Shown here piece by piece: positions 1,373-39,905 of a stretch of DNA of 64,000 nucleotides (the first letter of the stretch is position 1; each line of letters begins with the position of its first letter). This DNA comes from a bacterium (GTDB lineage Bacteria; Actinomycetota; Acidimicrobiia; Spongiisociales; ZC4RG35). The notes beneath the pieces were generated by a model. The model was given only the letters and a program-made list of their open reading frames with translations, had not been told where the DNA came from and made no database searches. The stretch covers positions 62,001 through 126,000 of the forward strand of contig JAPPFC010000036.1 in the NCBI GenBank assembly GCA_028824015.1, written 5' to 3'. The translations under genes and the position numbers were made by a program.

Positions 1373-2601
1373 ACTCCGGTGATGCCGAGCCGCGCCAGGT
1401 GGAGGGCGGCCGTGGTCGTGTAGACCCGCACCCGTTCGCGGTCCCCAGGCATCTGCAGCCGCCGGGTCTCCACCCTCTCGGGCGTCGCCACCCCGACATA
1501 GACGACTCCCACGGGCCGGTCGGCCGGTGCGGGTCCCGCCGATCCGGTCACCGCCAGTCCCACGTCCACCCCCAGGGTCCGGCGCGCTCCCTCGGCCATC
1601 TCGCGGGCGGTACGGGCGGACACCACCCCCTCCCCGAGCGTCTCGGCCGCCACGCCCAAGAGCCGCTCCTTGAGGTCGGATGCGTAGCTCACCACCGATC
1701 CCCGGAACACCCGGGACGACCCGGGCGTCAAGGTGATGCGGGCCGCCACCAGCCCGGCCGTCATGGACTCGGCCGTCCCGATGGTCCACCCTCTCTCCTC
1801 CAGCAACTCCAACAGCCGCAACTCGATGGTCTGATCATCGAAGCCGAACACCGCCGGTCCCAGGCGTCGACAGATCTCCGAGGACAGGGGAGCGATCATT
1901 CGCTCCGCCTCCCCCACATCCGCCGCCTTGGCCGTTATCCGCACTTTGATCTCTCCGGCCGAGGCCAGGTAGGCCAAGCTCGGGTTCTCCGACCGGAGAT
2001 AGAGGTCTTGCAGCAACTCTGCGGTGCGGGACTCCGAACGTCCCCAGGTCCTGATGATCCTGCTGACCAGTGTCTCGGAGGTCCCCGCCGCCTCGGCCAA
2101 CCTGGGCAGGACCTCCTCGGAGAGCATCCCAGCCATCTCCCGGGGCACCCCGGGCAGCGCGAAGATCCATCTGCCCCGGTGAGAGAGGGCCAGGCCGGGA
2201 GCGGTGCCTCTGGGGTTGTGGATCAACTCGGCGCCCTCGGGATACTCGGCCTGCCGGAGATTGTTGGAGGGCATCTCCCGGCCCATCCCCGAGAAACGCT
2301 CTCGAAGGACCTCCGCCCACTCGCTGCTGAACCGCAGAGAACGGCCGGTCACCGCACAGATCGCCTCTCGGGTGAGATCATCGGGGGTGGGGCCGATCCC
2401 CCCGGTGATGATCACCGCGTCGGCTCTCTCCAATGCCGTGGCGATCGCAGCCTCCATCCGTGCGGGGTTGTCCCCCACCGTCACCTGGAAGTGGGCGTCG
2501 AAGCCCTTGCCGGCCAGGGCGTCCGCTATGAAGGCGGCGTTGCCGTTGACGATCTGTCCCAGCAGCAGTTCGGTGCCCACGGTTATGACCTCCACGATCA
2601 T
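1357..2601 (-). CDS. cinA: CinA family protein (nicotinamide-nucleotide amidohydrolase)
   Basis: A 414-residue full-length CinA. Residues 1-170 form the MoaB/MogA-like domain (start MIVEVITVGTELLLGQIVN, GGIGPTPDDLTREA, and the segment ALPGVPREM). Residues about 255-410 form the PncC domain (TIGTAESMTAGLVAARIT, VVSYASDLKERLLGV, AVTGSAGPAPADRPVGVVYVG). The PncC domain deamidates NMN for pyridine nucleotide salvage; the N-terminal domain has pyrophosphatase activity in studied homologues. The ATG at 2601 has a strong GGAGGAGG and overlaps the stop of the phosphatase gene by four bases. It forms an operon with thpR and is next to recA, as in many firmicutes and actinobacteria. Confidence 0.95.
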   Translation of the reverse strand: MIVEVITVGTELLLGQIVNGNAAFIADALAGKGFDAHFQVTVGDNPARMEAAIATALERADAVIITGGIGPTPDDLTREAICAVTGRSLRFSSEWAEVLRERFSGMGREMPSNNLRQAEYPEGAELIHNPRGTAPGLALSHRGRWIFALPGVPREMAGMLSEEVLPRLAEAAGTSETLVSRIIRTWGRSESRTAELLQDLYLRSENPSLAYLASAGEIKVRITAKAADVGEAERMIAPLSSEICRRLGPAVFGFDDQTIELRLLELLEERGWTIGTAESMTAGLVAARITLTPGSSRVFRGSVVSYASDLKERLLGVAAETLGEGVVSARTAREMAEGARRTLGVDVGLAVTGSAGPAPADRPVGVVYVGVATPERVETRRLQMPGDRERVRVYTTTAALHLARLGITGVWWNR

Positions 2602-21166: not shown

Positions 21167-21841
21167 TCAGCTGTCCTCGGCTCTCGACCGCGCCGCCACT
21201 AGGCCGGCGAGGCCGAGGATCACCCCTGCCAGGTACCACCATCCCCGGTTCGCCCACCCTCCGACCGACCAGAGAGGGACAATCGATCGGACCGCAGCAG
21301 CCCATCCCAGCGCCACGGCCGCGGTGGCGCCCCTCCACGGGAGGGGCCGGACCAACAGCCAGACCGCCGCAGCAGCGAACAGCACCGAGGCGTACAGGCC
21401 CACCGGATGGCGGGTCAGTTCACTCCCGGGCAGAGCCATCGCCCACCACAGTCCCGACGGCGATCCCAAACAGGCGCCCTGCCACAAGCATCCCGCCTCC
21501 CACACGGCGACTCCGGCCAAAGCGGCGGGGGCCAGGTAATCCATCCGGTTCGCCAGATCGGAACGACAGGTCCAGGCCAGGAAGCCCACCGCCCCGGCCG
21601 CGGCCGGAACCGGCGAGATGCCCCCGCGCACCAGGATCAACTCGATCGGGTCGGAAAACACGTTGACTCCCTCCGCCCACAGATAGGCAACCCGTCCCAC
21701 ACCGATCGCCACCAGGACCGCGCCCAACAGATCGTTGAAGGGATCCCCCACCGCTGTCGGGCGGGTCCTCCTTAGTACCCACAGCACCAGGGCGGCGGCG
21801 GCCATCGCCCCTACCGACCTTCCCAGAACAGTCAGGTCCAT
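21167..21841 (-). CDS. Lgt-like (prolipoprotein diacylglyceryl transferase-related) membrane protein
   Basis: A 224-residue protein with about seven hydrophobic segments. It resembles Lgt in the central region: an Arg-containing VGRVAYLWAEG, VFSDPIELILVRGGISPV, and the block EAGCLWQGACLGSPSGLWWAMALPGSELTRHPVGLYASVLF, comparable to the G-C-x-x-G-C-x-G-x-P-T and R-H-P-x-x-LYE stretch of Lgt relatives. The classic Lgt signature GRxGNFxNxE is absent, so a true transferase role is doubtful. ATG 21841 (MDLTVLG) was chosen because hydrophobic sequence starts immediately; an ATG at 21871 is possible. It may modify or handle the lipoproteins common in this window (inference). Confidence 0.55.
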   Translation of the reverse strand: MDLTVLGRSVGAMAAAALVLWVLRRTRPTAVGDPFNDLLGAVLVAIGVGRVAYLWAEGVNVFSDPIELILVRGGISPVPAAAGAVGFLAWTCRSDLANRMDYLAPAALAGVAVWEAGCLWQGACLGSPSGLWWAMALPGSELTRHPVGLYASVLFAAAAVWLLVRPLPWRGATAAVALGWAAAVRSIVPLWSVGGWANRGWWYLAGVILGLAGLVAARSRAEDS

Positions 21842-22196
21842 TTCAAAGCCCCGCCTCTCCAAGCCTCCCAATCCCCGCGAAAACCATCACTAACACGCGA
21901 AAACCCGGCAGGCCCTCCTCCCGCTAGGGCCCCACCCCCACCGCCACCGTACCGTTGGATCGAGACGCGCTCCGCCAGGCCCGGCAGAGGTGCGGGTCTC
22001 GAGGATTTGATCCCTGACAGCGGACCGAGCGACGCCGGATCGGGCCGAGAGGTGATGCGACTGCCTAACACCGTGCACCAGGGGTGAGACACCGACAACC
22101 CTCAAGCATCGGTTGTTTTCCCGACATCGGGTTTGTTTTGGCAAGGGCCGGCCCCGCCACCTTCGAACCGAAGCGTTTTGCGATTGGCTTCGTCCC
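21842..22196. other. intergenic region without a supported gene
   Basis: About 355 bases between the Lgt-like start and the end of the TlpA-like gene. Open frames here lack plausible starts and homology. A short hairpin-forming stretch (CCCGACATCGGG around 22120) is present. I see no tRNA, known riboswitch or 4.5S RNA signature. Confidence 0.5.
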
Positions 22197-22691
22197 TCAG
22201 CCGAGACGGGAGAGTTCATCGCTCCAGAGACTGAGAGTGCCCTCATCAATGATCCCCCGGTGTACGTAGAGGACCTCCCCCACGGTGTCGGTGAACACCG
22301 TGAAGGGAATCCCAAAGGCTTCGTACTGGGCCATCATTTCATTCCCCTCCGACAGATAGTTCTCAAATGCAATGCCATGTGACTCCATGAAGGCGAAGGC
22401 GTCGGAGGGAGCGTCGTCCACCGCCACTCCAATGAACCGGACCTGACCACCGTATTCCTCATGCGCGCGGCGCAACACCGGGGCTTCCGCCCGGCAGGGT
22501 CCACACCAGGAGGCCCAGAAGTTCACCACCGCCGCGCCGCCCGCCGAGAGTTTCCCGGCCAGTTCCTCCGGGGTGATCCACTCCAGGGTGTCGGGAACGG
22601 TGGCCGAAGCCGGATCCGGCTCTCCGCCCGAGCCACAGGCGGCGGTCAGCAAAATCATCACCGCACCGAGAATCGCCAGTCGTTTGCTCAT
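22197..22691 (-). CDS. TlpA/ResA-like thioredoxin-fold lipoprotein
   Basis: A 164-residue extracytoplasmic thioredoxin-like protein. The signal MSKRLAILGAVMILL ends in the lipobox LTAAC, so it should be lipid-anchored. The redox motif is in VVNFWASWCGPCRAEAPVL (CGPC), and the cis-proline region is AFGIPFTVFTDTVGEV. These proteins reduce or oxidise disulfides in exported proteins, often apocytochromes. It uses ordinary cysteine, unlike the three TGA-containing paralogues at 36.3-38.8 kb. The ATG at 22691 begins the signal peptide; upstream in-frame starts would spoil it. Confidence 0.88.
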   Translation of the reverse strand: MSKRLAILGAVMILLTAACGSGGEPDPASATVPDTLEWITPEELAGKLSAGGAAVVNFWASWCGPCRAEAPVLRRAHEEYGGQVRFIGVAVDDAPSDAFAFMESHGIAFENYLSEGNEMMAQYEAFGIPFTVFTDTVGEVLYVHRGIIDEGTLSLWSDELSRLG

Positions 22692-22843
22692 TGACAATCC
22701 TGATGTTACGCGCCGAAACACCCTATGGGGATTTCCTTTTCTCCGGGGGCCGCCCACCAGGACAAAGGGAGACTTCCTCGTGCCCCATCCGTCTACACTT
22801 GACTCGGCAGGTCGGTGTTTGTCCGGCTTCTGTGACCACTCTT

Positions 22844-28284: not shown

Positions 28285-28474
28285 CGCTGTCCCTGCGCTT
28301 TCCTAGCCGAAATCTCCGAGAGGACGGACAGGACTCAGAGTCACGCCCTTCACGTCCTCTCCTGACGATTGACCGTGAAATCTACAGAGCTCCATGCACC
28401 GTGTCAAGGAGTCCCGGCCGAGCACGGCCGACCGTTTCAGGGGTTCGGCAGCCACCCCCATACACTCAAAGCGA

Positions 28475-29146
28475 GTGACCCTTCCATCAGGCGCCCAACC
28501 GCCCTCCCCGATCCGCCTCCTGGTTGAACTGGTCGATCTCTCCGTTTCCCTGGGTGGCGTACCGGTGCTGTCGGGCTGCCGCCTAACCCTCCAGCCCGGC
28601 GAGTCGCTGGGGGTGGCCGGGCCGAATGGCGCCGGCAAGTCCACCCTGCTGGCTGTGGTGGCCACCTTCATCACACCGACGGGGGGCTCCGGAGCGGTGC
28701 TCGGGACCCCCCTCGGAAGCCCCCGAATCCCGGCGGTACGCGCCGGGATCGGCTGGTCAGGACACCTGCCCGCCCTTTATCCGGACCTGACCTTGGGCGA
28801 GAACCTGGCTCTCGCGGCCCGGTTGGGCGGCCACCCGGCCTCGCAGGGCCATACGGTCCTGGAGCAGGTCGGCCTGGGCGGTGCGGCGGGCATCCGGGCG
28901 GAGCGCTGCTCGAACGGGATGAGACGGAGGGCCGACCTGGCCCGGCTGCTGATCGGCTCTCCCCGGCTGGTCCTACTCGACGAGCCCGACGCGGGTCTCG
29001 ACCAGGACGCCGCCCCGATCATCGACCACTTGGTCAGGACCACAACCCGCCGGGGAGGGGGTGTCCTGTGCGTCTCCCACGACGCCGCCAAGTTGTCGGG
29101 TTGGGTAGACCGGGTGGTGGAGATGCGAGACGGGAGTATCACGTGA
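28475..29146 (+). CDS. ccmA: cytochrome c maturation ATP-binding protein CcmA
   Basis: A 223-residue ABC ATPase, first gene of the ccm operon. Walker A is GVAGPNGAGKSTLLAVVATFI; the signature appears as RCSNGMRRRADLARLL; Walker B is PRLVLLDEPDAGLDQDA; the switch His is in VLCVSHDAAKLSG. With CcmBC it energises heme handling by CcmE. The GTG start at 28475 follows TACACT by eight bases (possible leaderless mRNA); a more distant ATG at 28394 would add a low-complexity tail. The stop overlaps the ccmB GTG by four bases. The assignment to ccmA rests on context more than on sequence alone. Confidence 0.85.
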   Translation: MTLPSGAQPPSPIRLLVELVDLSVSLGGVPVLSGCRLTLQPGESLGVAGPNGAGKSTLLAVVATFITPTGGSGAVLGTPLGSPRIPAVRAGIGWSGHLPALYPDLTLGENLALAARLGGHPASQGHTVLEQVGLGGAAGIRAERCSNGMRRRADLARLLIGSPRLVLLDEPDAGLDQDAAPIIDHLVRTTTRRGGGVLCVSHDAAKLSGWVDRVVEMRDGSIT

Positions 29147-29820
29147 GTGCGGGGTTCTGGCGATCGGCGGGCCTCATCGCATTGCGGGACCTGCGGGTGG
29201 AACTCCGAAGCGGGGAGGCGCTCACGGTGGTGTTTCCCTTCGCGGTGGTGGCGAGTTGGATTGCCCCCCTGGCGACCAATGCCTCTCCCCTCCTGCTCCG
29301 GGACCTGGCCGCTCCCGTGTACTGGCTGATCACCCTGCTGTTCGGCATGATGGTCGTGCTGCGCCAGACGGCTCTCGAGACCCGTGCCCAGCGCCGCGCC
29401 CTGGCTCTGACCGGTCTGGACCCGGCGGCCCGATTCGCCGGCCGGTCCGGAGCATCGGGGTTGGTGCTGGCGGCGGTGGCCGGGACCCTGGTGTTCCCGG
29501 TGATCATCTTCTATGACTACCGGCCGCCGTCCGGCGCCTGGCTCATGGCGCCCGTGATCATCCTGGCGGCGGCTGGGCTGGCCATGCTCGGCACCCTGGC
29601 CGGGGACGTGACCATCGGGCTCCGGGCCCGCACCAGCCTCGCTCCCCTGCTGATGGCGCCCCTGGCGGTGCCGCTGGTGATGGGGGCCGCCCAGAGCCTG
29701 GAAAGTCTGGTGGCCGGCAAGAGTATCATCACATGGGTATTGGTGCTGGTCATCGCCGACCTCGGACTGGCGGCCGCGGGAGTGATGTCGGCCCGGGCCC
29801 TGGAGGAGATTTCCTTGTGA
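29143..29820 (+). CDS. ccmB: heme exporter membrane protein CcmB
   Basis: A 225-residue protein with six hydrophobic segments. The start LIALRDLRVELRSGEALTVVFPFAVV resembles the CcmB N-terminus (RDL-x-x-E-x-R). ALALTGLDPAARFAGRSGA, then the segments LVLAAVAGTLVFPVIIF and GAAQSLESLVAG follow in the family order. It partners with CcmA and CcmC in the membrane. GTG start at 29143 overlaps the ccmA stop; its own stop overlaps the ccmC GTG. Similarity is divergent but position and topology agree. Confidence 0.85.
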   Translation: MSAGFWRSAGLIALRDLRVELRSGEALTVVFPFAVVASWIAPLATNASPLLLRDLAAPVYWLITLLFGMMVVLRQTALETRAQRRALALTGLDPAARFAGRSGASGLVLAAVAGTLVFPVIIFYDYRPPSGAWLMAPVIILAAAGLAMLGTLAGDVTIGLRARTSLAPLLMAPLAVPLVMGAAQSLESLVAGKSIITWVLVLVIADLGLAAAGVMSARALEEISL

Positions 29821-30521
29821 CAAACAGGTTGTTGGCGGTCTTGACCGGCGCGGCGATCGGAATCGGTCTGGTCCTGGCGTTCACCTCTCCCCCCGACCTC
29901 CTTCAGGGCGACTTCGTTCGCATCCTCTACATCCATGTCCCGTCGGCCTGGCTGGCATTCCTGGCCTTCGGGGTCACGGCCGCCGGAAGCATCGGATGGC
30001 TGTTCACCCGCCGGATGAGCTGGGACCGCGTGGCCGAGGCCTCCGCAGAGATAGGAGTGCTGTTCACCGCCATCGCCCTGGCCACCGGCATGATCTGGGG
30101 AAAGCCGGTGTGGGGCACCTACTGGGACTGGGGCGATGCCCGTCTGGCAACCACGGCCATGATGTTCTTCGTGTACCTGGGTTATCTGGCCCTGCGCCGC
30201 ACCACCACCGACCCTCGCCTGCGAGCCCGCCGCTCGTCGGTGCTGGGCGCCATCGCAGTGGTGCAGGTGCCGCTGGTCTACTTCTCGGTGAAGCTGTGGC
30301 GCACCCTCCACCAGGGGCTGACGATCCGGCCCGACGGCATCCAGATGGACGGCGGAATGGTCTCCGCCCTTCTGGTGAACCTGGCGGCCTTCACGCTTCT
30401 CTACGCCACGCTGCTCTCCTTCCGGACCACTTTGGCCCGCATGGAAGAGGCTGCGGCGGCTGAGAGAATCCCGGTGCGGAGCCCGGTGACGATCCCCCGG
30501 TTGGGAGAGGCGGACGCATGA
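29817..30521 (+). CDS. ccmC: heme handling protein CcmC
   Basis: A 234-residue six-span membrane protein that presents heme to CcmE. The tryptophan-rich heme-binding WWD motif reads MIWGKPVWGTYWDWGDARLATTAMM, with flanking histidines in FVRILYIHVPSAWLAF and KLWRTLHQGLTI as in all CcmC proteins. The start is GTG at 29817, giving MTNRLLAVLTG; the stop overlaps the ccmD ATG (ATGA). The C-terminus is a short cytoplasmic tail of about 25 residues. High confidence because motif and context agree. Confidence 0.94.
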   Translation: MTNRLLAVLTGAAIGIGLVLAFTSPPDLLQGDFVRILYIHVPSAWLAFLAFGVTAAGSIGWLFTRRMSWDRVAEASAEIGVLFTAIALATGMIWGKPVWGTYWDWGDARLATTAMMFFVYLGYLALRRTTTDPRLRARRSSVLGAIAVVQVPLVYFSVKLWRTLHQGLTIRPDGIQMDGGMVSALLVNLAAFTLLYATLLSFRTTLARMEEAAAAERIPVRSPVTIPRLGEADA

Positions 30522-30628
30522 ACATCGGCTGGGTGTGGGCAGCCTATCTGGCCACGGCCGGGCTTCTGGCGGGCTACATACTCCGCCTGGCCATCCGGTG
30601 GCGAAGGGCGACGAGCCGCCCGGACTGA
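30518..30628 (+). CDS. ccmD: small heme exporter subunit CcmD
   Basis: A 36-residue protein, MNIGWVWAAYLATAG onwards, with a single membrane span and a basic tail (LAIRWRRATSRPD). CcmD proteins are about this size, begin with a tryptophan-rich segment, and bind CcmABC to release holo-CcmE. The gene sits exactly between ccmC (ATGA overlap) and ccmE (TGATG overlap), the classical place. The small size makes it easy to miss in automated annotation. Confidence 0.85.
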   Translation: MNIGWVWAAYLATAGLLAGYILRLAIRWRRATSRPD

Positions 30629-31035
30629 TGAAGTCACGCCGCTGGCCGTTTTTGATCTTCGTGGGGGTGGCGATCCTGGTGGCCGGAGCCTTCCTGATCC
30701 GCAACATCGACAGCGACCTCGTCTACTATCTCACCCCCCGGGAAGCAGTGGACCAGCGCTCCGACTTCCCCGACGGGCGGCGCTTCCGGCTGGCGGGAAT
30801 CGTGGTGGAAGGCTCTCTTGAGAATGGATCTGACCCTCTCCGGTTCCAGGTGACCGACGGCGCCTCCACCATTCCGGTGGTACTTTCCGACACGCCGCCG
30901 CTGCTGTTCGACGAGGACGTCAACGTGCTGCTGGACGGGGCCTGGCTGGGTGATCACTACCGGGCCGACGGCGCGCTCATATCCCACGACGAGAACTACC
31001 AGGCGCCTCCGGTAGCCGACGACGGCTCCCGCTGA
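30628..31035 (+). CDS. ccmE: heme chaperone CcmE
   Basis: A 135-residue membrane-anchored heme chaperone. An N-terminal anchor (WPFLIFVGVAILVAGAFLI) is followed by an OB-fold with RFRLAGIVVEGSL and VTDGASTIPVVLSDTPPLLFDEDVNVLLDG. The heme-attachment motif HxxxY is present as SHDENYQAP near residue 125, the histidine type rather than the Cys variant of archaea and some sulfate reducers. The start overlaps the ccmD stop and the stop overlaps the ccmF start, each by one base. Confidence 0.94.
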   Translation: MKSRRWPFLIFVGVAILVAGAFLIRNIDSDLVYYLTPREAVDQRSDFPDGRRFRLAGIVVEGSLENGSDPLRFQVTDGASTIPVVLSDTPPLLFDEDVNVLLDGAWLGDHYRADGALISHDENYQAPPVADDGSR

Positions 31036-33092
31036 TGCTCTCTCTCGCCGGAACCCTGGCTGTGTGGACGGCGCTGGTGGCCTCCGGATGGCTGGCGGTC
31101 GGCGGATGGCGGGCGGCGCGGGACCCGCTTGGCGCCTCTCCTTCCATCGCGGCTCTCCGCCGATCCCTCCTGGTGATGGTTCTCGCCGCACTGGGGGCGA
31201 TGATCGTCCTGGAAGCCGCCCTTCTGGCCAACGACTTCACCGTCTCCTATGTGGCGAACCACCATTCTCGCCACACGCCCTTTCCCTTCAACATCGCCAC
31301 TGCCTGGGCGGCCCTCGAGGGCTCGATCGTGCTATGGGGATTGGTCCTCGCCGCGTATGCATACGCGGTGTGGCGCAGGGCGACCGCCGGGGGAACCGGA
31401 CCGGACTCTCTCGACTGGGGCGCCCTGGCGGTGATCGGAGCGGTCGGCGTCTTCTTCTTCGGACTGATGGTGACCGTTGCCAACCCCTTCGAAGTCTGCA
31501 CGGAGGCCACCGCCCGTTCCTGCACGGCTTCAAGCGCCTTCCCCTTCTCCCGGGCGGTGGGTCCCTCCGACGGTTTGGGGCCCAACCCCCTCCTCCAGAA
31601 CCACCTTCTGATGGCGATCCATCCCCCACTCCTGTACCTGGGCTATGTGGGACTGACCGTCCCCTTCGCATACGGGATCTCGGCCCTGGCCCTCCGCAGA
31701 TCCGGCCCCGCATGGCTCCGCCGCAGCGGGCTGTGGACCCGGGTGGCCTGGGTGTTCCTCACCGCGGGCATCACCCTGGGCGCCTGGTGGGCCTATGAGG
31801 TGCTGGGCTGGGGAGGCTATTGGGCCTGGGACCCGGTGGAGAACGCCTCGTTCATGCCCTGGCTGGTGGCCACTGCGTTTCTCCACTCTTCCCTCGTGCA
31901 GGAGAGAAGGGGGATGCTGGAGGCGTGGAACTTCGTGCTGGTGATCGGCGCCTTCTCCCTGACCATCCTGGGCACTTTCCTCACCCGGTCGGGAGTGATC
32001 GCCTCGGTTCACTCCTTCACCCAGTCCGCCATCGGTCCCGCGCTCCTCGGGTTCCTGGTGGTGGTCACGGTGGGCTCCTTCACCCTGTTCGCGGCCCGCT
32101 CCCAACAGATCTCCTCCCCTCCCCGCTTGGAGTCCCTCTCCAGCCGGGAAGGGGGCTTCCTGCTCAACAACCTGCTGCTGACCGTATACGCCATGGTGGT
32201 GCTGACCGGCACCCTCTATCCGCTGGCCCTGGAGGCGTTCACCGGGTCGGAGGTGGGCGTGGGACGGCCTTTCTTCGACCGCATGGCCGTCCCCATTAGC
32301 TTCGCCCTGCTGTTGGCCATGGGCGTCGGCCCTGCCCTCCCCTGGCGGGTGGCCCGCGCCCGGGTGGTCTGGCCCCGCATCCATCTTCCCCTCCAGATTG
32401 CCCTGGCCGCGGGCGTGCTGGTGATCATCACCGCCACCCGGGTCGGGTACGTGGTGATGGCCGTCATAGCCGGAACCTGGGTGGTGGCCGTGGCCGCATT
32501 TCGCCTCTGGTCCCAGGCCCGCCGGTTCTCCCGGGGGCGGGACGGGAGGACCTGGAAGAGCCTCTCGAGGGTGGTCAGGTCGGATCGGGGTTTCTGGGGC
32601 GGACAACTGGCCCATGCCGGCGTGGCGCTGGCGGCGGTGGCCATCGCCTGTACCGCCAACCTCTCTCAGACTCTTGACCGGGTGGAGATGGCGCCCGGAG
32701 ACCGGGTGGAGTTCGCCGGATACGAGTTGATCCACACCGGGGTCTCCACCACCAGGACTCCCAACCGGCTGAAGAGCTCCGCCCATGTGGAGATCCGGAA
32801 GGACGACCGGCGGGTGGGACTGGCGGAACCCGCCCTCAGCCAATTCGAGACCTCGGCGCTGCCCATCGCCACTCCCGGTGTCCACCACACGCTCGCACAG
32901 GACATCTACTTGAGTGTGACGCGCATCGACGAGCAGGCAATCACGCTGCGAGCGGCCACGGCTCCCCTCCAGTGGGTGCTGTGGCTGGGCGGGTTGACCT
33001 GCGCAGCGGGAGGCCTCTATTCCCTGGTGGGCAGGAACCGACGCAGATCGCGGTCCGTCCGCCCCACTGAAGGAGCGCGACCGGGTGGCTGA
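31035..33092 (+). CDS. ccmF: heme lyase subunit CcmF
   Basis: A 685-residue polytopic membrane protein with about 14-15 spans, the normal size. It joins heme from CcmE to apocytochrome c. The WWD heme domain reads WAYEVLGWGGYWAWDPVENASFMPWL near residue 255, and LLQNHLLMAIHPPLLYLGYVGLTVPFA carries two conserved histidines. FLTRSGVIASVHSF is another CcmF block. The large periplasmic C-terminal domain (about 555-655) is present. ATG at 31035 overlaps the ccmE stop, and the 3' end overlaps ccmH by eight bases. Confidence 0.96.
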   Translation: MLSLAGTLAVWTALVASGWLAVGGWRAARDPLGASPSIAALRRSLLVMVLAALGAMIVLEAALLANDFTVSYVANHHSRHTPFPFNIATAWAALEGSIVLWGLVLAAYAYAVWRRATAGGTGPDSLDWGALAVIGAVGVFFFGLMVTVANPFEVCTEATARSCTASSAFPFSRAVGPSDGLGPNPLLQNHLLMAIHPPLLYLGYVGLTVPFAYGISALALRRSGPAWLRRSGLWTRVAWVFLTAGITLGAWWAYEVLGWGGYWAWDPVENASFMPWLVATAFLHSSLVQERRGMLEAWNFVLVIGAFSLTILGTFLTRSGVIASVHSFTQSAIGPALLGFLVVVTVGSFTLFAARSQQISSPPRLESLSSREGGFLLNNLLLTVYAMVVLTGTLYPLALEAFTGSEVGVGRPFFDRMAVPISFALLLAMGVGPALPWRVARARVVWPRIHLPLQIALAAGVLVIITATRVGYVVMAVIAGTWVVAVAAFRLWSQARRFSRGRDGRTWKSLSRVVRSDRGFWGGQLAHAGVALAAVAIACTANLSQTLDRVEMAPGDRVEFAGYELIHTGVSTTRTPNRLKSSAHVEIRKDDRRVGLAEPALSQFETSALPIATPGVHHTLAQDIYLSVTRIDEQAITLRAATAPLQWVLWLGGLTCAAGGLYSLVGRNRRRSRSVRPTEGARPGG

Positions 33093-33516
33093 TCCCACCG
33101 GTATGCGCAGCCTGCTCCGTTGGGCCTCACCCCTGGTGACCGTGGCCCTGGCCGCTTTCGTGGTCGTCTCGCTGACCACCGCCGACCCGGTGGACCAGGA
33201 CCGCGCCGATCGGATCGGAAAACAGGTCCGCTGCCCGGCGTGCGAGGGGGAATCCATCGCCGAGTCCCCCAGTTCCTACGCCGCCGACATGATGGGCTAT
33301 GTCCGGGAGATGATCACCGAAGGCCGATCCGACCAACAGATAATTGACCGGCTCATGGCGGCCTATCCCCAATCACAGATGCTCGATCCCCCGTTCCAGA
33401 CCAGAACCGCCCTCCTGTGGGCGCTCCCCGCCGCCGCGTTGGTGACCGGTCTCCTCCTGGCCTATTACCGCCTCAGAAAGCCCGTACCCCCGGAGTCGGT
33501 CAGGGAGTCGCCGTGA
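33085..33516 (+). CDS. ccmH: cytochrome c maturation thiol protein CcmH
   Basis: A 143-residue protein with an N-terminal membrane segment, a small helical domain and a C-terminal membrane span (TALLWALPAAALVTGLLLAYY). The redox motif is QVRCPACEGESIAESPSS, the CcmH/CycL/NrfF RCPxC signature, which reduces the CxxCH of apocytochromes before heme attachment. AYPQSQML is in the family position. The GTG at 33085 precedes an ATG (33103) that could also be used. The stop overlaps the next GTG by four bases. Confidence 0.93.
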   Translation: MADPTGMRSLLRWASPLVTVALAAFVVVSLTTADPVDQDRADRIGKQVRCPACEGESIAESPSSYAADMMGYVREMITEGRSDQQIIDRLMAAYPQSQMLDPPFQTRTALLWALPAAALVTGLLLAYYRLRKPVPPESVRESP

Positions 33517-34298
33517 GCGAGGAAAGCCACTGGCAGGCGCGCCTCGATCAAGCCACCCGGGACCTGGAGGAGTTGGAACAACAGCTCGCCACCGATGAGA
33601 TACCTCCCTCCACCGCCCGGCGCCTCCGGCGGGTCTACACCGAGGAGATAGAAGAAGCCCGGCTCAGGCTGGCCGGGGAGGCGTCGGTCCCGGCGGACCC
33701 CGAGTCTCCCGATCGGGACTCCCGGTCCCGATTCTGGACACCCGGGAGGGTGACGGTCGTCGCCATTCTGGGGACCGCGGCGGCGGCACTGGTGATCTCG
33801 GTTGGATGGTTCGTCCAGCCCGAAGACCAGGCCGACGCCGACGGGGGGGAGTTCGATCCGTCCCAGTACTCCAATGAGACCATGGAGGCGGTGATCTCCG
33901 CCAATGCCGACCACCCCCAGATCAACGGCATGCGCCTCGCCCTGGCCGGACGCTACTTCCGAGCCGGTGACTTCGCGCGGGCCTTTGCCCACTATCGAGG
34001 CGTCCTGGAACACGACCCGACCGCGGCGGAAGAGGCTGAAGCGCTGAGCCGCCTGGGATGGATGGCCTGGGCGGGGTCGGGAGAGGTCCAACTGGCGATC
34101 GATACCCTGGACCGTGCCCTTCTGGCGGCGCCCGGCTATCCCCAGGCGCTCTACTTCAAAGCCATCGTCCTGTGGTGTGGGGCCGGACAGACTACCGAAG
34201 CCGTCCCCCTTCTGGAGGAGGCGAGTGAGGCGCTTCCCTCCGAGGAGGCCTTGGTCGCCGAGTTGGCCTCGGCCCGAGCGGGAGAGGAGTGCTCGTGA
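33513..34298 (+). CDS. ccmI: TPR protein, CcmI/CycH-like apocytochrome chaperone
   Basis: A 261-residue protein with an N-terminal coiled region (residues 5-45, DLEELEQQLATDE), a membrane span (VTVVAILGTAAAALVISVGW near residue 78) and a TPR-like C-terminal domain (residues 120-255, with LALAGRYFRAGDFARAFAHYRGVLEHDP and AIDTLDRALLAAPGYPQALYFKAIVLW). CcmI proteins hold apocytochrome c C-termini for the CcmFH lyase. The single span rather than two is a variant. GTG start overlaps ccmH. Identity rests on topology plus its place in the operon. Confidence 0.78.
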   Translation: MSEESHWQARLDQATRDLEELEQQLATDEIPPSTARRLRRVYTEEIEEARLRLAGEASVPADPESPDRDSRSRFWTPGRVTVVAILGTAAAALVISVGWFVQPEDQADADGGEFDPSQYSNETMEAVISANADHPQINGMRLALAGRYFRAGDFARAFAHYRGVLEHDPTAAEEAEALSRLGWMAWAGSGEVQLAIDTLDRALLAAPGYPQALYFKAIVLWCGAGQTTEAVPLLEEASEALPSEEALVAELASARAGEECS

Positions 34299-34858
34299 AG
34301 AAGCGACCGGGGCGGGCCGCACTGGTGCTGGCGGTGATGGTGGCGGCGGCCACCGCCGTGTTCGCCGGGGTGTTCGCCACCCGCCTCTCCGAGGACTCCC
34401 GGCTTTCCGATTCGCCGCTGGTTGGTGCACCATCCCCGGTGATGACCCTCCCGCTTCTGGATGGATCCGGCGAGATCGAGATCCCCGAACCGGACGCCCG
34501 GGTGACCGTGATCAATTTCTTCGCCTCGTGGTGCCTCGAGTGCCGCATCGAGCATCCCGACCTCCTGGCCGTCGCCGAGGCATTCTCGGATTCGGGGGTC
34601 CGCCTCATCCAGATCGCGTACCAGGACCGCCCCGACGACTCCATCGCATTCATGAACGAGTTGGGCGTCTCTCCCCTGATCAGATACGCCTCAGACCCGG
34701 GCAGCCGCGCCGCCATCGCATTCGGGGTGTTCGGGATCCCCGAGACCTACTTCATCGGACCCGACGGGGTGGTCACCGGAAGGATCACCGGTCCCGCCGA
34801 CTCCCTCTCCCTGGGCCGCCAGATCGACCTGATCCTCGGGAGAGGCCGACCGGAGTGA
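34295..34858 (+). CDS. ccmG: thioredoxin-fold protein CcmG/DsbE
   Basis: A 187-residue membrane-anchored thiol oxidoreductase, the last ccm gene. The N-terminal anchor (ALVLAVMVAAATAVFAGVF) is uncleaved by appearance. The motif is VINFFASWCLECRIEHPDLL (CLEC), the cis-proline is GVFGIPETYFIGPDGVV, and SPVMTLPLLDGSGEI precedes it. It keeps CcmH and apocytochrome cysteines reduced. The GTG at 34295 overlaps the ccmI stop (GTGA). It ends 13 bases before the convergent hydrolase gene. It uses Cys, in contrast to the TGA-containing paralogues 1.5 kb away. Confidence 0.9.
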   Translation: MKKRPGRAALVLAVMVAAATAVFAGVFATRLSEDSRLSDSPLVGAPSPVMTLPLLDGSGEIEIPEPDARVTVINFFASWCLECRIEHPDLLAVAEAFSDSGVRLIQIAYQDRPDDSIAFMNELGVSPLIRYASDPGSRAAIAFGVFGIPETYFIGPDGVVTGRITGPADSLSLGRQIDLILGRGRPE

Positions 34859-36325: not shown

Positions 36326-37378
36326 CTAGCCGGAGATCGACAGCAGTTCTTCGATCGCCGCCCGTAGTGTGGAGGATCCCTGAGCGCCGAACAACTGCTT
36401 GACAATCGTCTTGTCGGCGCCGATCATGATGGTCACCGGCTGGTATCCCACCCCGTAGGCGGAGAAGATCCGCTGCGGCGCGTCCAGACCCCACATCACT
36501 ACCCCCGACCTGAGCAACTGGTCGGCTCTGCTGGAAGTGGCGCTCAAAGACGCCTTCCAGGCCGGCGCCACGAACGCCACCCGGTCCTGGTACTCGACGG
36601 CCAGAGCATCTACGGAGGGCAACTCCCCCCGACACGCCGGTCACCATTCCGCCCAGAACACCACCACGACGGGGCGGGGCTCGGCAGAGAGCGTGAAGGT
36701 CCCTCCCGATCCCAGCTCCAGGGTGAAGTCGGGGGCGGATTCCCGGTTGTGCGGCTGGGTGGTGGTCGTGGTGGTAGTCGGCGCCGCGGTGGTGGTCGTC
36801 GTCGGAACTGTCGTGGTGGTCGTGGTAGTCGTGGGAGGTCTGGGCCGGGTCGTGGTGGTGGTAGTGGTCGGCGGCCTTCTGGCAGTGGCAGGGGCCCTGG
36901 TGGTGGTAGTGGTGGGCGCCCTGGTGGTAGTGGTGGTGGGCGCCGTGGTGGTGGTCGGAGCCTCCGTAGTAGTTGTGGTGGCGGCGGTTGTGGTGGTCGG
37001 TGCCTCCGTAGTGGTGCTCGCGGCCTCCGTGGTGGTTGTGGGGCTCTCCGTGGTCTGAGTCTCTCCGTCCACCTCCTGTTCCCCGGTCTCGACCTGCACG
37101 GGGACCGTCGTGGTGGTGGGAGCCTCGGGTGCAGCCGTGGTCGAGGGGACGTCATCGGCTTCACCCTGTTCCAATGCCGCGGTTTCGACATCGGATGATG
37201 GAGCCTCCTCGGGTTGGGCGGTGGTGGCCGGCGCGGCGGTAGTCGGTGGCGGGACGCTCTCGACCTGCGAACCCTCATCCCCCGATCCACAGGCACCCAA
37301 CAGAAGTCCGCCCAAGACCCAGAGTGTCAGTAAAACCCGCCCCGAAACCGACCTCCAGGTCGGTATTACGTCATTCAC
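36326..37378 (-). CDS. predicted selenoprotein: thioredoxin-fold lipoprotein with UxxC motif (copy 1, longest tether)
   Basis: 350 codons if the in-frame TGA at 36643-36641 (codon 246) is read as selenocysteine. GTG 37378 starts a signal peptide with lipobox LLLGAC (Cys30). Residues 31-217 are a Thr/Pro/Ala/Glu-rich tether. The thioredoxin-like domain begins at PDFTLELGSGG, runs through VVVVFWAEW, the TGA, then PACRGELPSVDAL, APAWKASL, WGLDAPQRIFSAYG and the cis-Pro region GYQPVTIMIGADKTI. The TGA takes the place of the first CxxC cysteine, giving UPAC. The reading frame and homology to copies 2 and 3 continue on both sides. A hairpin follows nine bases after the TGA. The start overlaps the stop of copy 2 (GTGA). 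Confidence 0.85.
36613..36631 (-). other. SECIS-like hairpin after the TGA of copy 1
   Basis: On the coding strand the arms CGGGGGG and CCCUCCG form seven pairs (one G-U) around the loop AGUUG. The stem starts nine bases after the TGA. Bacterial SECIS hairpins bound by SelB lie in the coding region about this distance after the UGA and carry a GU in the loop. Confidence 0.6.
36761..37056 (-). repeat. low-complexity Thr-rich coding repeat
   Basis: About 300 bases of near-tandem ACC/ACG/ACT codons broken by GCC/CCC/GAG, encoding runs such as TTTTEAPTTTT and RAPTTTTT. It is the core of the tether in copy 1. Repeats of this kind change length by slippage, so the tether length may vary between strains (inference). 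Confidence 0.85.
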
Positions 37379-38199
37379 CCGGGACTCGACAGGGTGGCTG
37401 AACCAACCGAATCGGAACCGATCGAGAAAGAGTTGCTCCCGCTCAGAAGCGCGTCCAGGTCCGCCCGGAGATCCCCACCGTCTCTCACCCCCGGCCAAGT
37501 GACGAGCAGGGACCCATCAGCGGTAACGATCGCACCGGCGGGCTGGCCGCCTATCCCGTAAGCAGCAAAGATCTCCTGTGTTTCATCCAGCCCCCAGAGC
37601 ACCTTCCCCGACGGGATCAATTGCGCCGCGGCATCGGCGGTGTCCTCCAGGCTTGACTTCCAGGCCGGCGCCACCACGACGACCCGGCCCTCGTACTCCT
37701 CAGCCAACCGATCTACAGCGGGCAACTCCCGCTGACACGCCGGTCACCACTCCGCCCAGAAGAAGATCAGCACCGGTGTGGTCTGTTGCGAGAGCACAAA
37801 GGTCCCTCCCGTGCCCAATTCCAGGGTGAAGTCGGCCGCCGGCGGCCCGAGAGGCTCCGACGGCGGCACCGTGGTTGTGGTGGTGGTCTCGGGCTCCTCG
37901 GCCGGCGTCTCGGAGGCGGCTTCGCTCTCGGTGGGAGCGGGCTCGGGAGCCGCAGTGGTGGCCGTCGCCGCAGTGGTGGCCGTCGCCGCTTCGGTCGTAG
38001 CGGTGGACCCCGCGGTCGTGGTGGCGGGCGCCGCGGTGGTAGTTGTGGGAGCGGCCGTCGTATCGGGAACGGCGTCGGCGGCTGCGGGGGCTTCCGTCGT
38101 TTCGGTCCCGCCCGTGTCCGACCCTCCGCCGCAGGACGCGGCAACCAGAGACACCAGGACCACCCCGACTATCCCCGACCAAAGACCGCGACCCTTCAT
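37375..38199 (-). CDS. predicted selenoprotein: thioredoxin-fold lipoprotein with UxxC motif (copy 2)
   Basis: 274 codons with one in-frame TGA at 37746-37744 (codon 152). Signal peptide with lipobox LVAASC (Cys23), then about 100 residues of Thr/Ala/Glu-rich tether, then the thioredoxin-like domain: ADFTLELGTGGTFVL, VLIFFWAEW, TGA, PACQRELPAVDRLAEEYEG, APAWKSSL, WGLDETQEIFAAYG and GGQPAGAIVTADGSLL. The TGA gives UPAC at the catalytic site. The C-terminal 20 residues (Ser-rich) are extra. ATG 38199 lies eight bases after TATACT, so it may have its own leaderless promoter. A perfect seven-pair hairpin follows the TGA. Reading the TGA as stop would leave two fragments with no active site. Confidence 0.86.
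37716..37734 (-). other. SECIS-like hairpin after the TGA of copy 2
   Basis: CAGCGGG pairs perfectly with CCCGCUG around the loop AGUUG, nine bases after the TGA, the same geometry as in copy 1. Three of the seven pairs differ from copy 1 while staying paired, which is compensatory change. Confidence 0.65.
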
Positions 38200-38299
38200 C
38201 TTGGGAAAGTATAGGTGTTGGCAGGTATAAAGCGCCTTGGATCAAGCAAGCCCTCCCGCCAGGCTCGGACGACTCGACATGAGCCCCTGCCTCCTGGTG

Positions 38300-38827
38300 C
38301 TAGGAAACAGTATCCCTCCCCGCGGTTTCATCGGGCATCGGCAGTAGATCGTCCAGGGCGTCCTCTATCTCATCGATGTCCCTGGATCCCTGCCAGGTGT
38401 CAATCAGGGTTCCGTCGGAAGCCACAATGGCGCCGGCAGGCACGCCGCGGAACCCGTATGCCGAGAAAACCTCCTGGTCAGCATCCAGACCCCAGGGCAC
38501 GAGGCCCGAGGGCAAAAGCATCTCGGCAACCCCGGCAGCGCGATCCAGACTCGATTGAACTGCAGGAGCCAGGACCGCCACCCGACCCTGATAATCCGCC
38601 CCCAGAGTCTCGATATCCGGCAACTGCCGCTTGCACACAGGTCACCACTCCGCCCAGAAGAACAGCAGCACCGGGGTGCTCTGCTCGGAGAGAACGAACG
38701 TGCCTCCAGTTTGCAAATCCAGGTTGAAGTCTTCAGCCGGTTCCCCGATTCCAGAACTACACGAAACCGCAAGAAACGCCAAAAGGGTTGTCACGGCCAG
38801 GACCAACCAACTGCGGCGGTGTTTCAT
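38300..38827 (-). CDS. predicted selenoprotein: thioredoxin-fold lipoprotein with UxxC motif (copy 3, no long tether)
   Basis: 175 codons with one in-frame TGA at 38644-38642 (codon 62). Signal peptide and lipobox FLAVSC (Cys23), only about ten residues of linker, then EDFNLDLQTGGTFVL, VLLFFWAEW, TGA, PVCKRQLPDIETLGADYQG, APAVQSSLDR, WGLDADQEVFSAYG and GVPAGAIVASDGTLI. The active site would be UPVC. ATG 38827 follows TATAGT by seven bases, suggesting a leaderless transcript that begins the three-gene array. Protein identity to copies 1 and 2 is moderate (roughly half of residues by eye), so the shared TGA is not a recent duplication artefact. Confidence 0.86.
38618..38629 (-). other. SECIS-like short hairpin after the TGA of copy 3
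   Basis: CGGC and GCCG form four pairs around an AGUU tetraloop. The AGUU lies exactly as far from the TGA as in copies 1 and 2, but the stem is shorter and shifted by one base. This is the weakest of the three hairpins. Confidence 0.4.
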
Positions 38828-38897: not shown

Positions 38898-39905
38898 CTA
38901 GCGGCTCAGGTCGATCACCCTGTCGAGCACCGCCGCGGCCGCTCCCGAGTCGATCGAAAGTGCAGCCGCAATGGCGCCTTCGGCCGGGGTCCCGGCCATG
39001 CCGGCCACCATCAGGGTGGCCGCCGCGTTGACCACGGCCGCGTCCCTACGGGGACCGGTCTCACCCGCCAGCACGGATCGCAGGATGGCGGCGTTGGTCT
39101 CCGCGTCGCCGCCGGTCAACTCCGAGACGTCCGCCGGGTCCACGCCGAAGTCCTCCGGGGTGAGCACAACGGGCGTCACCTCGCCGTCCGCCAGGTGGAA
39201 CCCCCGGGTGGGGCCGGAGACCGAGACCTCGTCCAGTCCGTCATCGGCATGGACCACCAGTGCCCGCTCGGTCCCCAGGCGTAACAGCACCCCGATCATG
39301 CGCTCGGCCATCCGGCTGTCGTAGACGCCGATCAACTGCCGTGTGGCGCCGGCAGGATTGGTGAGCGGCCCCAGGAAATTGAAGACGGTGGGGATGGCCA
39401 GTTGCTGCCGGATGGGCACGACGTACTTCATTGCGGGGTGATACCGCGGCGCGAAGAAGAACCCGAACCCCGCTTCGGTGACCATCTCGGCGGTGTGTTG
39501 GGGGTCCAGTTCGATCCCCACTCCCAATGCCTCCAACACATCCGCCGACCCGCACTTGGAGGAGGCCGACCGGTTTCCGTGTTTCGCCACTTTGGCTCCG
39601 GCCCCGGCCGCGATCAGGGCGGCCGTGGTGGAGATGTTGAAGGTGCCGGAACGGTCTCCGCCGGTCCCGGCCGTGTCGACCACCGGTTCCCCGATCGAGA
39701 CCCTCACCCCCACGGCGCGCATGGTCTCCACCAACCCGGCCATCTCTTCGGTGGTCTCGCCCTTGATACGGAGCGAGACCAGGAATGCCGAGGTTTGGGC
39801 GGCTGTCGCCCGCCCGCTCATGATGTCGTCCAGCGCCGCCCGAGCCTCCGACCGGCTCAGATCCTCACCGGCGGTCAGCTTTCCGAGTACTTCGGACCAA
39901 TTCAT
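38898..39905 (-). CDS. trpD: anthranilate phosphoribosyltransferase
   Basis: A 335-residue enzyme of tryptophan synthesis joining anthranilate to PRPP. PRPP-binding VVDTAGTGGDRSGTFNISTTAA is near residue 76; KHGNRSASSKCGSADVLEALGV near residue 105 and FFFAPRYHPAMKYVVPIRQQL near residue 150 are diagnostic; RTVFNFLGPLTNPA appears as IPTVFNFLGPLTNPAGATRQLIGVYD. Full length, ATG start. Its gene is isolated from other trp genes, with aquaporin upstream (15 bases) on the same strand and the selenoprotein array downstream (70 bases). Confidence 0.96.
   Translation of the reverse strand: MNWSEVLGKLTAGEDLSRSEARAALDDIMSGRATAAQTSAFLVSLRIKGETTEEMAGLVETMRAVGVRVSIGEPVVDTAGTGGDRSGTFNISTTAALIAAGAGAKVAKHGNRSASSKCGSADVLEALGVGIELDPQHTAEMVTEAGFGFFFAPRYHPAMKYVVPIRQQLAIPTVFNFLGPLTNPAGATRQLIGVYDSRMAERMIGVLLRLGTERALVVHADDGLDEVSVSGPTRGFHLADGEVTPVVLTPEDFGVDPADVSELTGGDAETNAAILRSVLAGETGPRRDAAVVNAAATLMVAGMAGTPAEGAIAAALSIDSGAAAAVLDRVIDLSR

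Follow-up and report, generated by a model that had tools for sequence, protein, structure and literature searches.

A tandem triplet of putative selenoprotein lipoproteins on tethers of graded length in Acidimicrobiia

Described selenoproteins and the gene triplet

Selenoproteins in which a PF00578 domain carries selenocysteine (Sec) as the first residue of a UxxC motif have been catalogued since 2005 (PMC1088965, PMC9312934). As the accessible portions of these catalogues and of a further report (PMC13188914) describe them, such Prx-like proteins have homologs with Cys in place of Sec and a hairpin after the UGA codon; the bacterial SECIS hairpin directly follows the UGA and carries a G in its small apical loop (PMC1088965). 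Those same portions mention neither lipoproteins nor tandem copies of one family. Several selenoprotein genes lie side by side in the SAO and Tso operons (named in PMC13188914), which the accessible text describes as specialised operons of six and three genes, respectively. Another selenoprotein, a ResA-like protein with a WAxxUGC motif (NF041054), combines a thioredoxin fold with Sec in its active site. Among proteins that use Cys, pneumococcal Etrx1 and Etrx2 are lipid-anchored thioredoxin-fold paralogs that pass electrons received from CcdA on to a methionine sulfoxide reductase outside the cell (PMC3914529). Mtb DsbF and MPT53 (DsbE) oxidize substrates in vitro (PMC3853704), although a DsbD-like partner is presumed for them.

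The locus described here lies within a 64,000-nucleotide stretch of DNA (the window). On its minus strand, an initial annotation had noted three adjacent genes, each with a lipoprotein signal and a thioredoxin-like domain interrupted by an in-frame TGA where the first redox Cys would be expected, and the three codons are located exactly there. Copy 1 (38300..38827; 175 aa including U62, ending in TAG) has a predicted lipobox Cys23 (FLAVSC; 38759..38761), a tether of ~3 residues, and the putative Sec codon at 38642..38644 (WAEW-U-PVC). Copy 2 (37375..38199; 274 aa) has a predicted lipobox Cys23 (LVAASC; 38131..38133), a Thr/Ala/Pro/Ser-rich tether of ~93 residues (37852..38130), and its TGA at 37744..37746 (WAEW-U-PAC). 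This gene employs TGA twice: once internally, followed by a hairpin, and once as its own stop (37375-37377). Copy 3 (36326..37378; ~350 aa) has a predicted lipobox Cys30 (LLLGAC; 37289..37291), a Thr-rich tether of ~180 residues (36749..37288; 41% Thr), and its TGA at 36641..36643 (WAEW-U-PAC). The most likely start of copy 3 is the GTG at 37378 rather than a TTG further upstream. Because this GTG overlaps the stop codon of copy 2 by 4 bp (GTGA), the two copies are probably translated together. A consensus promoter scan returned nothing on the strand of the triplet.

All three predicted products begin with a signal peptide that includes a lipobox. When the TGA is read through, each also has a downstream AhpC-TSA/Redoxin domain above the Pfam cut-off, with PF00578 scores of 51.5, 46.7, and 41.4 bits (gathering cut-off 26) and the motifs UPVC, UPAC, and UPAC. 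The copies had been judged only about half identical, and the other two indeed match copy 1 at 54% and 42% of positions over their full length. A whole-genome search for the pattern FWAxW-TGA-xxC found just these three sites in the host.

The initial annotation had also proposed a search for selA, selB, selC, and selD, and held that a genome lacking selB or selC would speak against Sec. The same genome carries selA (339.9 bits), selB directly after it (287.8 bits), a single tRNA-Sec above the Rfam cut-off (79.5 bits, anticodon TCA), and selD (381.6 bits; L018, G000:C16:13691-14608). This selD appears to be a selenoprotein gene itself, with one internal in-frame TGA in HGAG-U-GCK (HGAG-TGA-GCK), which we take to be the position where SelD is known to carry Sec. 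Based on sequence, we consider it very probable that each gene of the triplet encodes a selenoprotein lipoprotein, an estimate that does not extend to the direction of the redox reaction.

By their predicted sequences, the triplet proteins are by definition members of the catalogued UxxC PF00578 selenoproteins, with which they share the domain, the leading Sec, the hairpin, and the existence of Cys homologs. Judged against the published descriptions in their accessible portions, the clade that includes the triplet is set apart by its restriction to one order, by a lipid anchor on a low-complexity tether, and by triplication. By the same kind of description, the SAO and Tso operons differ from a set of three paralogs of one family that diverge mainly in the length of their tethers. 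The NF041054 protein has UGC where the triplet has UxxC, and its model, for which the cut-off is 300 bits, scores the triplet proteins at 17-20 bits. Etrx1 and Etrx2 use Cys rather than Sec and are encoded with ccdA (together with msrAB2 for Etrx1), neither of which adjoins the triplet. No NCBIfam model attains its cut-off for these proteins, including ResA (PRK03147/NF002854; 37-52 bits versus 170) and thioredoxin TrxA (TIGR01068; 33-35 bits versus 96.8).

The initial annotation knew of no description of proteins of this form. Within the literature searched, that impression holds for the lipid-anchored clade that spans the order and for the tandem triplet with its graded tethers, both of which are probably new, but not for the UxxC PF00578 kind as such. 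No report of selenoproteins in Acidimicrobiia or UBA5794 was found in the open-access literature, and the UBA5794 genome paper (PMC12008989) mentions neither selenoproteins nor selA or selB. Automatic annotation truncates every such gene at its UGA, so that an order-wide selenoprotein family is likely to be overlooked, and databases would record each gene as broken, its internal UGA being read as a stop.

Tethers and triplication within the genus

Judged by motif only, 100 of 108 family members have a lipobox ahead of the domain, and the family architecture is that of a lipoprotein on a Thr/Pro-rich tether. Outside the genus of the host, the tether has a median length of 51 residues (17-111). 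In the phylogenetic tree, the triplet forms a genus-specific expansion (support 96/89) with copy 3 as the sister of the pair formed by copies 1 and 2. Across the species of this genus, the graded tether lengths are kept: the ~3, ~93, and ~180 residues of the host correspond to 3, 92, and 190 in G003 and to 3, 92, and 176 in G005. In G002, the tethers of copies 2 and 3 span 67 and 181 residues, and that of the first copy is very short by eye. This first copy (L104) also has Leu replacing the usual Pro in its motif (WAEW-U-LVC) and sits on a long branch of the tree.

The graded tether set, which is absent from the initial annotation, is the most unusual feature of the triplet. Judging by length, such grading would let one domain act at different distances from the membrane, with triplication of the gene having left that domain on short, medium, and long tethers. 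We speculate, with considerable reserve, that the three genes form a functional set in which one Sec domain is held at three fixed distances to create a graded selenium redox relay through the envelope, possibly suited to an oxidizing host such as a sponge. Lipid-anchored Sec redoxins on unequal tethers raise the question of why selenium is used outside the membrane, and at three distances.

Predicted redox function and its direction

After export, each product would receive its lipid at the lipobox Cys and remain outside the membrane, attached through the Thr/Pro/Ala-rich tether, as its signal and tether sequences suggest. The AlphaFold model of the domain (pLDDT 91) most closely resembles Mtb DsbF, MPT53, and ResA, with DsbF (3ios) and MPT53 (1lu4) as the top two structural matches (TM 0.71-0.74 by query length). 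In profile comparison, pneumococcal Etrx1 ranks first among solved structures. Fold and motif together suggest that Sec would attack and that the Cys three residues on would resolve the intermediate. The most likely function, as predicted from sequence, is extracytoplasmic thiol-disulfide exchange.

The direction of this exchange is harder to assign. By analogy with the pneumococcal CcdA-Etrx system, we give roughly even weight to a reductive role, in which CcdA would relay electrons of cytoplasmic thioredoxin to the Sec lipoproteins, and these would reduce oxidized surface proteins. Sec is usual at the attacking position of reductive redoxins. The host has one CcdA, encoded on another contig. 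Oxidation appears to have its own agents: a DsbB homolog (L251:1384-1929, plus strand) is followed by an anchored CPHC thioredoxin (1919-2572, plus strand), and the two are probably a separate oxidizing pair, which favors the reductive role for the triplet.

The direction is nevertheless unsure because the nearest folds belong to proteins that act as oxidants in vitro. One alternative is that the selenoproteins themselves are oxidants in extracytoplasmic disulfide formation, like DsbF and MPT53, both of which oxidize hirudin in vitro (PMC3853704). MPT53 has a CPxC-type motif and shares the Gln-Pro at the cis-proline loop with the triplet domain, and the genome does encode a DsbB homolog. However, identity to these two Cys-based proteins is just 24-26%, the DsbB gene stands beside a thioredoxin of its own, and VKOR is absent from the host genome. 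When these facts are combined with the usual place of Sec in reductive enzymes, we consider an oxidative role unlikely.

A second alternative is that the proteins are dedicated to cytochrome c maturation and, like ResA or CcmG, deliver electrons to apocytochrome or to CcmG/CcmH. Genes resembling ccmA, B, C, E, F, H, and I, together with a CcmG/DsbE-type thioredoxin with a CLEC motif, form the context on one side of the triplet and converge on it (28394..34858, plus strand), and the proteins are ResA-like by fold and by their below-cut-off NCBIfam match. The cluster nonetheless has its own CcmG (34289-34858, plus strand), ccm genes adjoin the family in only 11 of the 88 loci with enough flanking sequence, and three copies would be excessive for this task. 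This dedicated role is therefore less probable still than an oxidative one, and reduction of oxidized surface proteins remains the reading we prefer.

Other neighbors do not settle the substrate. The triplet lies between trpD, its upstream neighbor (38898..39905, minus strand), and a PAF-acetylhydrolase-like gene; trpD adjoins the family in 61 of the 88 loci, and an Lgt-like/TlpA pair occupies the other flank in 21. Elsewhere in the window, a gene for an Lgt-like membrane protein lies next to one for a Cys-containing TlpA-type thioredoxin (21167-21871 and 22197-22757, minus strand). This is the kind of pair that adjoins the selenoprotein gene in other genera of the order.

Active-site codon and hairpin across the order

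A profile built from the three domains of the triplet detected strong orthologs in eight families of the host's own order, and among 395 genomes drawn from the class, matches above 100 bits were confined to this order. All genomes compared are MAGs. At 119 distinct WAEW sites, a count that takes in loci from a TGA-directed pattern search and so is biased for TGA, the codon is TGA in 113, TGC in five, and TGT in one; TAA and TAG do not occur. In the undirected search for relatives, every WAEW-type ortholog likewise has TGA except six, so the Cys homologs that the initial annotation had called for exist, with Cys at the identical codon. Purifying selection acts on the sequence 3' of the TGA, where dN/dS is 0.03-0.26. 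Recurrence of the same codon in about 100 relatives, never as TAA or TAG, together with this selection, argues that the in-frame TGAs are not due to chance and agrees with the earlier view that three independent decays to a stop are not credible. Mis-assembly was also considered as an explanation and rejected. Matches to the TGA pattern in Bizionia, Psychrobacter, Clostridia, and the like fall outside the family and are probably chance occurrences.

Cys forms accompany loss of the Sec machinery. A TGA ortholog is present in 68 of 99 genomes, and five others have a Cys ortholog only. Four of these five (G013, G027, G060, and G091) have neither selB above the cut-off nor tRNA-Sec, whereas the fifth (G031) still has both. 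The two components are jointly missing from none of the 51 TGA genomes that are at least 90% complete (p = 1.4e-5 for the comparison with four of five). In the tree, Cys forms arise at about four separate spots among TGA forms, although several of the forks are weak. The family offers natural Sec/Cys pairs that track the loss of SelB and tRNA-Sec. One genome (G063; L090, G063:C20) has, besides a TGA ortholog, a diverged paralog of the family with TGT.

Where the machinery is present, SelB and tRNA-Sec would decode the UGA in WAEW-U-P-x-C as Sec, aided by a candidate SECIS hairpin that starts ~10 nt past the UGA. In the family hairpin, the stem reaches up to 7 bp and encloses a small AGUUG loop (of the type CGACGGG-AGUUG-CCCGUCG) that has the G described for bacterial SECIS elements; 16 nt separate this loop from the UGA. 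Within the triplet, a hairpin follows each UGA. The candidates of copy 2 (37716..37734, minus strand; CAGCGGG-AGUUG-CCCGCUG, z -4.25) and copy 3 (36613..36631, minus strand; CGGGGGG-AGUUG-CCCUCCG, z -2.30) have 7 bp each. That of copy 1 (38618..38629, minus strand) is the weakest, with 4 bp, a z-score of -0.59 relative to shuffles, and an AGUU tetraloop in a register shifted by one, as in a few other genes. Folding of 50-nt windows gave no clear signal for copy 1; the decisive tests were those of the 27-nt hairpin zone and the comparative one.

Among 97 distinct TGA sequences, standard pairs fill 90% of the pair cells, compared to 84% (sd 0.5) after shuffling. This value exceeds those of all 1000 shuffles and of all slid registers (38-70%). 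Stems such as CUACGGG/CCCGUAG, GCAAGGG/CCCUUGC, and CAGCGGG/CCCGCUG are compensatory variants. At least six contiguous pairs close the loop in 86 of 96 TGA sequences, versus one to three in the six Cys forms. In 85 of 97 sequences, the Leu of the loop is encoded by TTG or TTA, whereas TTG makes up 19 of 234 Leu codons nearby (p ~2e-46). In synonymous recoding tests, TGA forms have a mean z of -1.5, compared with -0.7 in Cys forms and -0.2 in an upstream control. These comparisons indicate that the UGA-proximal hairpin is conserved beyond its protein-coding content and dismantled in Cys forms, a form of conservation that is open to direct test. The selenoprotein reading of the initial annotation is thereby strengthened from four sides: the host machinery, the Cys homologs, the hairpin after each UGA, and the coincidence of Cys forms with machinery loss.

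If the TGA codons were instead true stops, the genes would be decayed pseudogenes or would encode functional truncated lipoproteins, and TGA does serve as a normal stop in this genome, copy 2 included. Given the constancy of the codon, the purifying selection beyond it, the conserved hairpin, and the full frame kept in Cys forms, this explanation is scarcely credible. Equally implausible is the insertion of Trp, Gly, or Cys through suppression or an alternative code, which has nothing in its favor beyond the open frame: TGA also terminates 50 of the 103 TGA genes, a tRNA-Sec with anticodon TCA is present, and replacements are always Cys and coincide with the loss of SelB and tRNA-Sec.

Acidimicrobiia MAGs also contain a second UxxC redoxin with an in-frame TGA (FWFWAEW-U-PTCxxHAPEVE), at L157:3700-4380 (plus strand) and at L116, L125, L127, L167, and L185. 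Its N terminus resembles SLH repeats by eye, Pfam having reported only redoxin/thioredoxin families, and it has its own GC-rich hairpin after the TGA.
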